DNA of 64,000 nt. Origin: Planctomycetaceae bacterium. Its GTDB lineage: Bacteria; Planctomycetota; Phycisphaerae; UBA1845; UTPLA1. The translations under genes were made by a program, and so were the position numbers. The notes beneath the pieces are model-generated. The model made no database searches and had not been told where the DNA came from. It was given only the letters and a program-made list of their open reading frames with translations. The stretch's first letter is position 1. Every line of letters begins with the position of its first letter. The DNA lies in NCBI GenBank assembly GCA_011525745.1, contig WYBU01000069.1, forward strand, positions 1 through 64,000. The letters are read 5' to 3'. Positions 44,401 to 55,771 of the stretch are shown here, piece after piece.

Positions 44401-45003
44401 TCATGACGCTTTCGACAGCTCGGCCGGCGCGAGGTAGTGTCGGCGGCACGACGGCAGCGGCATGCGTCCGTCGAGCACCGCCAGCACTTCTTCTTTCTCG
44501 CGAACCAGTTCCCACAGAGGCTGCGACGCCGACGCAATCAGCGGAAACGCCGCGGCGATCTGCGCATCCCACTGATCGGCGAAGGCGAGAAAATCGTCCG
44601 GGCCGACGAAGGTGCGACAGTTGGCCGCGCGGCACAGGCAGCGGAAGGGCGCTTCGACGTTCAGCGAACCGTAGTCGTCGGTTAGTTCCTCGCCGGGATG
44701 AATGTCGCGGACGGCGATTTCGAAGTTGAATCCCGGCGCCAGGCTCGTCGGCGCGCAGGAATGATTGACGAAGCGCGCATGGTCCCAGCAGAGAATCGCA
44801 TTGCCGAAGGCGTCTCGGAAGGCGTGCTTCAGCAGCACGCGCTGATAGATGCCGGTAAGCGTCGCGATGCGCTCAGGCGGGATCAATTGATCGAGCTTGT
44901 CGATCGCCCATGTGATGGTGCCGCGCGGAATGAACCGTGTGGCCACGACGCCGAACCCGATGTCCTCGTTGATGAACCGAAGTTCCGTATCAGGATGTAG
45001 CAT
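44401..45003 (-). CDS. SET-domain protein (putative lysine methyltransferase)
   Basis: 200 residues. SET motifs: IGFGVVATRFIPRGTITW, the cofactor motif ARFVNHSCAPT and HPGEELTDDYGSL with the catalytic tyrosine region, followed by post-SET-like cysteines (RCLCRAANCRTF). SET enzymes methylate lysine with S-adenosylmethionine; in bacteria they are sporadic, and some target host histones or ribosomal and DNA-binding proteins. Here nothing nearby names the substrate. No Shine-Dalgarno precedes the ATG. Composition equals its surroundings, so any transfer was not recent. Confidence 0.8.
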   Translation of the reverse strand: MLHPDTELRFINEDIGFGVVATRFIPRGTITWAIDKLDQLIPPERIATLTGIYQRVLLKHAFRDAFGNAILCWDHARFVNHSCAPTSLAPGFNFEIAVRDIHPGEELTDDYGSLNVEAPFRCLCRAANCRTFVGPDDFLAFADQWDAQIAAAFPLIASASQPLWELVREKEEVLAVLDGRMPLPSCRRHYLAPAELSKAS

Positions 45004-45243
45004 AAAAGAGGTGTGATGGGTGGGGCGTCCTTTCGTCGCCCCCGGCGGTCGGCCGCCCAGCCGCCCGCGGTCCGGAAGAATCCGAGCGATGGATATGGGG
45101 GCGGTATTCTACAAGTGCGTGGGCGGGGTTCAATAAAAAAAACACGTGAAAGGTCGAGATTTCCGCGCCAGCGGCGCCGCGACTTTGACCGCGAACACGT
45201 CGGAGTCGTCGGCCGAAATCCGCGGAAGTGGTCGATTGGATCG

Positions 45244-45414
45244 TCACTCGGTTTTTTCGGAGGAGGCGGTCGTAACCTCGGGCTTTTTCCGAGCTTCCGG
45301 GACGAGCAGCGCCGAGCCGCAGTATCCGCACCTGACCTGCTTGCCGCGCACCGCCTCCGGGACCTGTAGGACCTTGCGACACTTGAGATTCGGGCACAGG
45401 ATCGTTACGGCCAT
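45244..45414 (-). CDS. Small zinc-ribbon protein
   Basis: 56 residues from the ATG at 45414, GAGGGG six bases upstream. CPNLKC...CGYCG forms a four-cysteine zinc ribbon (LCPNLKCRKVLQVPEAVRGK, then QVRCGYCGSALLVP), the module planctomycetes often place before membrane proteins; here it stands alone with an acidic tail. A nucleic-acid or protein contact is plausible; function unknown. Confidence 0.65.
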   Translation of the reverse strand: MAVTILCPNLKCRKVLQVPEAVRGKQVRCGYCGSALLVPEARKKPEVTTASSEKTE

Positions 45415-45550
45415 GGCATACCCCCTCGCATCCGCGACCCGAAGTACATGGCCTTCCGGTTGCAGCCGATGCGTTTGCACCGACTTCAATCGGACGGACG
45501 GCGGCCGTTCTTGACGCCGGCGGAGTTTCTGTAATCTGATTCAAGATTAT

Positions 45551-45591
45551 TCGCCGATGGCCTTTATGATTGGTTATGATATAATTGCAGT
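45551..45591 (+). promoter_or_regulatory. Promoter-like AT-rich stretch before the structured RNA
   Basis: An AT-rich island in GC-rich surroundings carries TATAAT at 45580-45585. Transcription would start near 45592, two bases before the first hairpin. No good TTGACA lies 17 bases upstream, so this is an inference from the -10 and its position. Confidence 0.45.
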
Positions 45592-45783
45592 GTCCGGGAG
45601 AGGCAGCCTCCGATCCCGGGCGTGTCCGGCGCCAGCCTGTTGTGCCGCGCCGGACAGACGGTCCCGTCGAAGGGTCCGCCGGCGGGCGGGTGCTTCGGCG
45701 GGGTGATTCGGCCGGGAACGGCGCGGCGTTCCGAACTCGGTCGCCGGGCCTCCGGGTGGTCCGAATAGAAGGGAGGTGGTCCA

Positions 45784-45813
45784 GTGGCTTGTAACATAGG
45801 CGGGCTGCCATAG
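45784..45813 (+). CDS. Possible 9-codon leader peptide MACNIGGLP
   Basis: GTG at 45784 follows GGGAGGT (45771-45777) at normal start distance and runs nine codons to a TAG, which lies at the 5' strand of a long hairpin. The arrangement is that of a leader peptide or a toehold-like translation-sensing element, but it may be chance within a structured RNA. Confidence 0.3.
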   Translation: MACNIGGLP

Positions 45814-45856
45814 GCATGCCCACGCACGCTGCCTGTGGCAGCACCCACCAGGAATA

Positions 45857-45899
45857 GGACCCGCCGGCGGTTGTCGCTGTCGGCGGGTCCTGGTTTTTT
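45857..45899 (+). terminator. Intrinsic terminator of the structured RNA
   Basis: GGACCCGCCG (45857-45866) pairs perfectly with CGGCGGGTCC (45881-45890), 14-base loop, followed by TGGTTTTTT. This is the strongest intrinsic terminator seen in the window. Confidence 0.85.
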
Positions 45900-46243
45900 C
45901 AAGAAATCAGTCTTGCGGCCGATTCGCTTCCCAAGTCACCGCTTCCGCCGATAAACGCTCAAGGCGGCCGGCTGGCTTTGGCTCCGTCCTGCTTGGCATT
46001 GATTCGATCGTCTGATAATAATCCAATTCTTGCCGACATTCCATTCTGACCGCGTCAACGCGCTCTCTGCGGGACCGATTTGACTTTTTTTTGCGGATTT
46101 CGAGCAACGCCACTTCTCCATTTCGCGCTTACTAGTCAAGGGAGCATGCGTCTTCGTTTTGCGCATGTAGATACGTGCAAACGCTGAGTCCGATTCGTGC
46201 ACCGCGGAGCGAATAGGCAAATGGACGACGAGGGGGTGGGCTG
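45900..46243. other. Intergenic region upstream of the sigma-factor gene
   Basis: About 340 bases, clearly AT-richer than its surroundings. A minus-strand frame of 68 codons (45907-46113, beginning VALLEIRKKKSNRSRRERVD) is open, but its GTG start has no well-placed ribosome-binding site. I do not call it. The sigma-factor promoter should be here. Confidence 0.35.
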
Positions 46244-46780
46244 ATGGATCCAGCCCATGCGGCGTTGTTCACACGGCTGGTGCGAGAAAGTGAGCGGGCG
46301 TTGTACGCGTTTGTCCGCTCATCGCTTCGTGCCCGGTCAGACGTCGAGGATGTGCTTCAGGAGACATGGATGGCCGCCTGGCGCGGCTTTGACGCTTACG
46401 ACCGTAAGCGTCCGTTTGAGGCGTGGTTGCGCGGTATTGCGAGATTCAAGGTTATCGACCGGCTTCGTGACGGTCCGCTGGGCGGTCAAGCACGCTTCAT
46501 GCCTCCGGAGTCGGTCCTGGCCATTGCGGACGAGCTGGATGCGCTGGCGGCGCAGCGCAGTGATTCGACGCGGGCCGTGTTTGTGTTCATGGAGGAGTGT
46601 CTAGCGGCGCTGCCGCCGGCCGATCGCGCACTGATCGAGCGCGTGTACCGGTCGCGAGAAACATGCCGGGCCATCGCCGAAAGCAACGGCGATTCAGCGG
46701 ATGCCGTCGAGAAACGGCTCCAGCGCGCCCGGCTTCGATTGAGGAACTGTGTTTTGAACAAACTCCACGCGGATGCTTGA
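46244..46780 (+). CDS. ECF-type RNA polymerase sigma factor
   Basis: 178 residues. Region 2: AHAALFTRLVRESERALYAF, VEDVLQETWMAAWRGFDAYD and PFEAWLRGIARFKVIDRLRD, the -10 recognition part. Region 4: ECLAALPPADRALIERVYRS, then AIAESNGDSADAVEKRLQRA, a helix-turn-helix. The lengths fit a minimal two-domain ECF sigma of the planctomycete type with counting from A/LPxxxR. GAGGGGG precedes the start. The next gene overlaps its end and is the likely membrane regulator. Confidence 0.9.
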   Translation: MDPAHAALFTRLVRESERALYAFVRSSLRARSDVEDVLQETWMAAWRGFDAYDRKRPFEAWLRGIARFKVIDRLRDGPLGGQARFMPPESVLAIADELDALAAQRSDSTRAVFVFMEECLAALPPADRALIERVYRSRETCRAIAESNGDSADAVEKRLQRARLRLRNCVLNKLHADA

Positions 46781-54157: not shown

Positions 54158-54179
54158 CTCGAGTCTCTAGTTATTCCCT

Positions 54180-55771
<1,592 letters not shown>

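Follow-up and report, generated by a model that had tools for sequence, protein, structure and literature searches.

The window analysed here is the whole 64,000-nucleotide stretch (positions 1–64,000) of contig WYBU01000069.1 from Planctomycetaceae bacterium. The following features make up, flank or pair with a putative RNA of about 300 nt encoded on the forward strand.

44401–45003, minus strand: SET-domain protein (PF00856), a neighbour of the RNA locus and an instance of a SET domain in a bacterium
45580–45585, plus strand: TATAAT, putative −10 box with a poor −35 (sequence)
45592–45899, plus strand: proposed RNA, its start placed from the −10 box and its end at the T run of the terminator
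45592–45765, plus strand: 5′ domain with several GC-rich hairpins (folding; alignment of relatives)
45766–45784, plus strand: putative extended Shine–Dalgarno, a 19-nt complement of the 16S tail with 17 Watson–Crick and 2 G-U pairs (sequence search, duplex energy, conservation)
45784–45813, plus strand: mini-ORF GTG GCT TGT AAC ATA GGC GGG CTG CCA TAG, encoding (f)MACNIGGLP (sequence; 132/132 members)
45803–45815, plus strand: arm 1 (GGCTGCCATAGGC), which holds the stop codon and begins 19 nt after the start codon (alignment, covariation)
45828–45833, plus strand: arm 3 (GCTGCC) (alignment, covariation test)
45831–45842, plus strand: arm 4 (GCCTGTGGCAGC), partner of arm 1 (1:4 covariation)
45855–45899, plus strand: intrinsic terminator with a 17-bp stem (45855–45892) and a T run
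46244–46780, plus strand: ECF-type sigma factor, the downstream neighbour, starting 344 nt after the terminator
54182–55766, minus strand: 16S rRNA gene, the Shine–Dalgarno being complementary to its 3′ tail (Rfam RF00177, 1474 bits)

The segment TAGAAGGGAGGTGGTCCAG at 45766–45784 on the plus strand is identical at 17 of 19 positions to the complement of the 16S tail (TAGAAAGGAGGTGATCCAG, 54179–54197), and both mismatches are A-to-G changes, as a sequence-only reading of the window had stated and the search bears out. With up to three mismatches allowed, the complement occurs in the window only at this segment and in the 16S gene, and the whole 5.4-Mb genome holds the same two sites and no third; none of 100 window shuffles contains such a match, and a chance match is rejected on these grounds. 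The predicted duplex with the 16S tail has an energy of −33.0 kcal/mol; full matching would give −33.9, an ordinary AAGGAGG site gives −12.5 and the best unrelated stretch of the window (scanned in 3-nt steps) −21.1. The median for members of the family described below is −28.4 kcal/mol. Among 132 unique members, pairing of the 13-nt core (from AAAGGAGGTG to RTC) with 16S rRNA is kept at each position in 91–100%, which confirms the conservation in relatives that had been put forward for checking, and the common changes within the segment (A to G, C to T) preserve pairing as G-U. A 16S fragment or pseudogene is rejected because conservation of the family runs far past the 16S-like part, with identity to 16S ending after CCAG. 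No internal anti-Shine–Dalgarno partner is found beyond chance in the planctomycete members (median z about 0). The sequence-only reading was right that the match is longer than a normal Shine–Dalgarno, but had missed that the segment is the putative Shine–Dalgarno of a 9-codon ORF.

The GTG of this mini-ORF (45784) overlaps the end of the 19-nt match by its first base and lies 7 nt after GGAGG. A start codon follows GGAGG in 132/132 unique members, with a spacing of 6–7 nt in 126; this count is biased toward start-codon members by the seed pattern, which required NNTG (TG two bases past the segment), and the covariance model, which lacks the requirement, yet favours such members. The start is GTG in 91, TTG in 21 and ATG in 20 (85% GTG or TTG). 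An in-frame stop is reached at 6–19 codons in all 132, with none earlier, whereas frames +1 and +2 close within 5–20 codons in just 14/132 and 20/132; neither the in-frame stop nor the avoidance of early stops was selected for in the search. The frame ends in a conserved hairpin or at its margin, and the linker that separates the start codon from arm 1 varies in length in steps of three. In members from the order, linkers of 19, 22 or 25 nt put the stop 8 nt into arm 1, and linkers of 20 or 23 nt put it mostly 2 nt ahead of the arm; the stop is ahead of the stem in 13/86 order members and inside it in most. The in-frame stops in 132/132 members and the linker in threes are strong evidence that ribosomes read this frame.

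The peptide itself gives no sign of selection in the comparisons made. Differences between nearest neighbours at codon positions 1/2/3 number 27/22/35, and codons 2–6 include 14 synonymous versus 46 non-synonymous differing codons, in a test that draws on few sites, which are also under RNA constraints, with the stop codon often within a helix. Lineage motifs are present (IGGLP, GDKR, CTRWL, DC(T/I)KGL, KGLH, and QRGGTV or RGGTV), and in part they stem from the nucleotides that pair in arm 1. The element thus differs from a dual-function sRNA with a conserved translated peptide in that the frame is conserved but the peptide is not. Since all 132 frames are kept without visible selection on the peptide, translation itself, rather than a particular peptide, is suggested to be the selected event.

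Upstream, a promoter-like TTGA-N16–20-TANNNT lies about 225 nt before GGAGG in 58/86 members; in the window, TATAAT ends 6 nt before the proposed start (45580–45585 versus 45592), and not two bases before it as first described. The proposed RNA (45592–45899) has a folding z of −5.8 and folds better than 100/100 shuffles. In the 5′ domain, the hairpin ggcCGcCGG-GACGG-CCGGCGG has many compensatory pair types among 86 aligned relatives, and its counterpart in the window lies at about 45660–45705 with a longer loop. In order and phylum members, the apical loops of the 5′-domain hairpin and of the inner 3′ hairpin both repeat the motif GACGG or GACG. The terminator stem (45855–45892) with its T run is the sole terminator found within 44900–46300, and a terminator-like hairpin is present in 116/130 members versus 11/130 shuffled sequences. 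The earlier description of a GC-rich, structured and terminated RNA agrees with these results, its helices being conserved and covarying.

The 3′ part is organised around four arms, GGCTGC/GCAGC/GCTGC/GCAGCC. The 1:4 helix covaries, with an observed score reached by 0/500 shuffles of an alignment that was fitted to 1:4 and so leans that way; one of its pairs occurs as CG in 32, UA in 18, GC in 12 and UG in 9. Compensatory changes, another point proposed for checking, are thus present in both the 1:4 helix and the 5′ GACGG hairpin. The arms can also pair 1:2 and 3:4: the pairings 1:4, 2:3, 1:2 and 3:4 are each possible in 85–89/90 members, and the alternative fold 1:2/3:4 is possible in 85–87/90, with weak covariation. 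All elements of an attenuator (leader ORF, putative mutually exclusive hairpins and terminator) are present, with the same weakness on the side of the alternative fold. In the related loci L279 and L304 (identical to L069 and L070), the arms fit 1:2 and 3:4 only, with compensatory changes.

Homologues are recognised mainly by a covariance model, blastn alone being nearly useless across relatives: in 60 of them it detected 2 real homologues only (L002, L003), each with the segment, the hairpin and the terminator. A DNA pattern search yielded 19 members, of which 18 were aligned from promoter to terminator for a model of the core (R1). The covariance search of other planctomycetes called for by the sequence-only reading returned R1 matches in 92/114 genomes of the order (56/65 good ones), with essentially a single strong copy in each, the weaker extra matches being mostly antisense echoes of the palindromic arms. 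In a sample from the phylum, 98/392 genomes have a match, a figure in which the weaker matches were inspected in part and from which the strict filters of Infernal lose some members. Among 49 phylum loci read, the Shine–Dalgarno is present in 48 (not L136), 47 of which also have the mini-ORF; L327 has the Shine–Dalgarno without a start codon at the expected distance. The element is also carried by the Phycisphaerales loci L150 and L200. Searches with cmscan against Rfam 15 (the window at gathering cut-offs, the locus to E 10) give no family member at the cut-offs, the locus returning CC2171 below the cut-off and chance matches only, in line with the initial failure to recognise a known class. 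Of the testable outcomes that could have counted against the sequence-only reading, one was encountered, and in part: a protein-coding frame, in the form of the 9 codons. On these comparisons, the element is a free-standing RNA family of about 300 nt, spread across much of the Planctomycetota, usually single-copy and not represented in Rfam 15 at the cut-offs used there.

No conserved neighbour gene accompanies the RNA, any one neighbour being shared by at most 4 of 53 loci. Cis-regulation of a neighbour in Planctomycetota is rejected for this reason, and the conserved regulated gene directly downstream that characterises an attenuator is likewise lacking. In this assembly (G000, 92% complete), a search for tmRNA found none above the cut-off, with SmpB present; the absence is probably an assembly gap. 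As tmRNA is separately present in 19/21 genomes searched (19/20 relatives) and tmRNA and SmpB are normal in relatives, a role as a tmRNA substitute is rejected. Eight matches lie on viral contigs, most of them alphaproteobacterial-type RNAs (e.g., L344, L345, L346, L348), and are probably prophage-flanking or host DNA. Viral carriage is set aside; two of the eight, L349 and L350, resemble other genes.

A comparable arrangement is found in Alphaproteobacteria. The exact string GAAAGGAGGTGATCCAGTG occurs in at least 119 places when one genome per species is considered; the 80 matches listed are mostly from Alphaproteobacteria, with 2 from Phycisphaerales, 1 from Nitrosomonadales and 1 labelled Deltaproteobacteria. 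Nearly all loci among the matches listed open a GTG mini-ORF of 11–33 codons (mostly 14–25), and those read further have a terminator at the end. Differences at codon positions 1/2/3 in the alphaproteobacterial mini-ORFs number 61/71/64, likewise without peptide conservation. Four of the 10 loci run against Rfam belong to CC2171 (RF01867) above its cut-off. The window region scores 28.6 bits against this family (E 2.9e-4; genome-wide E 7.5e-4), well short of the 75-bit cut-off: the GAAAGGAGGUGAUCCAGUG segment of CC2171 is aligned in the window with two A>G changes, and most pairs of the outer closing stem are non-standard in that alignment. Planctomycete and CC2171-like RNAs are similar in layout as judged from their sequences; a common origin is unsupported because the R1 scores of alphaproteobacterial loci (16–32 bits, mostly 16–25) come largely from the Shine–Dalgarno. 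The Rfam cut-off for CC2171 misses RNAs of Bradyrhizobium (VSYTKRCHLAGIAR) and Rhodobacterales (VSR.ILERGVGT...) that have the same start segment (L195, L192, L184).

In Rhodobacterales, an RNA with an 18-codon mini-ORF, a maximal Shine–Dalgarno and a terminator lies just upstream of the ribosome-rescue gene arfB on the same strand (L146, L149, L177, L179, L184, L192, L199, L219 and others), which is the usual arrangement there. A GGQ motif is encoded downstream in 22 alphaproteobacterial loci, within 400 nt in at least 17. Rhodobacterales RNAs sometimes have a CCTCC partner of their own, the internal anti-Shine–Dalgarno being moderate, and L177, L192, L148 and L215 have downstream segments like CTGGCTCATCTCCTTG, imitations of the 16S tail with which the Shine–Dalgarno of the same RNA could pair. 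No functional literature on CC2171 was found, and its mini-ORF and 16S match are apparently undescribed within the searchable papers. Translation of two Caulobacter ncRNAs predicted earlier has been reported (PMC4117421).

The family, the 16S pairing, the frame, the helices and the stand-alone context can be read directly from the sequences. The sequence-only reading had proposed simple capture of 30S subunits or of free 16S tails; this is not supported in that form, and the pairing is best understood as the start of translation on the mini-ORF, because in 132/132 members a start codon lies downstream of the segment and opens a frame that closes after 6–19 codons. Ribosome sequestration is possible as a consequence of such initiation. 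The best explanation for these features, with an even chance of being correct, is a stand-alone regulatory RNA whose state is switched by ribosomes. Its transcription would run from a promoter to a terminator that belong to the RNA alone. By pairing of its 16S tail with 13–19 nt, a 30S subunit would bring a weak start codon (mostly GTG or TTG) into the P site, and the ribosome would translate 6–19 codons and halt in arm 1 or 2 nt before it. Initiation and termination would disturb the 1:4 helix, allowing arms 2, 3 and 4 to re-pair. The signal would be whether a ribosome occupies the RNA, reflecting free mature 30S or the level of translation, rather than the peptide, and the output might be carried by the RNA itself in trans, via the 5′ domain or its stability.

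The main rival to a ribosome-switched RNA, although an unlikely one, is a ribosome sponge or hibernation decoy, in which a strong Shine–Dalgarno, a weak start and a hairpin next to it hold 30S subunits captive or delay 70S complexes and lower translation, the ORF being no more than a by-product of the start codon that a stable initiation complex requires. The predicted 16S pairing, about 20 kcal/mol above an ordinary Shine–Dalgarno, and the 85% of non-ATG starts fit this idea, as does the position of arm 1, which starts 19–25 nt past the start codon, close to the edge expected of an initiating ribosome from its footprint size; a pure trap has no need of the in-frame stop at 6–19 codons that 132/132 members keep. 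Another reading is a functional micropeptide gene with an optimal ribosome binding site, for which the lineage motifs (e.g., IGGLP, GDKR) speak. This is improbable: the peptides are wholly different between lineages, the codon-position and synonymous counts look unselected, the motifs follow in part from the paired nucleotides of arm 1, and the remaining RNA is structured and conserved.

The leader ORF, competing hairpins and terminator resemble transcription attenuation, and at 17 or more loci the Rhodobacterales analogue immediately precedes arfB in the same orientation. A leader that attenuates a downstream gene is nonetheless as doubtful as the micropeptide, in that planctomycete loci have no conserved downstream gene (a neighbour shared by 4/53 at most) and the next same-strand gene in the window lies 344 nt past the terminator. 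The arfB linkage would also suit a ribosome-rescue probe, in which cleavage or termination in arm 1 removes the stop and creates a non-stop message that reports on trans-translation. The arfA mRNA of E. coli is a precedent for such a message, the stop codon is inside a stem in most members, and tmRNA and SmpB are present in relatives, but the stop precedes the stem in 13/86 order members and the planctomycete RNAs have no link to rescue genes, which makes the probe very improbable.

If the ribosome-switched RNA is taken further, it could be a housekeeping riboregulator class of much of the Planctomycetota, mirrored by the alphaproteobacterial CC2171-like RNAs, which gauges free mature 30S or translation capacity by means of a near-maximal partner for the 16S tail, a throw-away mini-ORF and 3′-arm refolding that acts in trans; this extension is tentative and more likely wrong than right. 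In either form, a conserved structured RNA over much of a phylum, with no conserved gene downstream and with translation possibly as its selected event, raises the question of whether a stand-alone bacterial RNA reads ribosome availability, and the analogue can be tested in genetically tractable alphaproteobacteria such as Caulobacter, Bradyrhizobium and Rhodobacter.

Several known systems share parts of this design. The rnTrpL/peTrpL system of Sinorhizobium combines a short translated ORF, competing hairpins, a terminator and a stand-alone product (PMC10117765). The planctomycete RNA differs from it in having its own putative promoter and neither a downstream biosynthetic gene nor a regulatory codon run, and in its maximal Shine–Dalgarno, rnTrpL being leaderless (PMC10117765). 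Like the planctomycete RNA, tmRNA (RF00023) is about 300–360 nt long, usually occurs once per genome, and is ribosome-linked with a short ORF, but the planctomycete RNA lacks a tRNA-like domain and has no Rfam match to it at the locus. Minigenes, of which bar of phage lambda is one, also place a very short ORF behind a Shine–Dalgarno. That of axe-txe is another example, and minigenes of this kind are part of other transcripts, without a conserved structured stand-alone RNA (PMC8708949). Closest is the alphaproteobacterial sRNA CC2171 (RF01867), which is free-standing and has GAAAGGAGGTGATCCAGTG, a GTG-start mini-ORF, a structured 3′ part and a terminator; it has a short leader in place of the 170-nt 5′ domain, and a different 3′ structure and different peptides. 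As no described RNA class combines all these features and membership in CC2171 fails, the planctomycete RNA may be of a new kind, although CC2171 has the same core of Shine–Dalgarno and mini-ORF and a kind common to both may emerge later.
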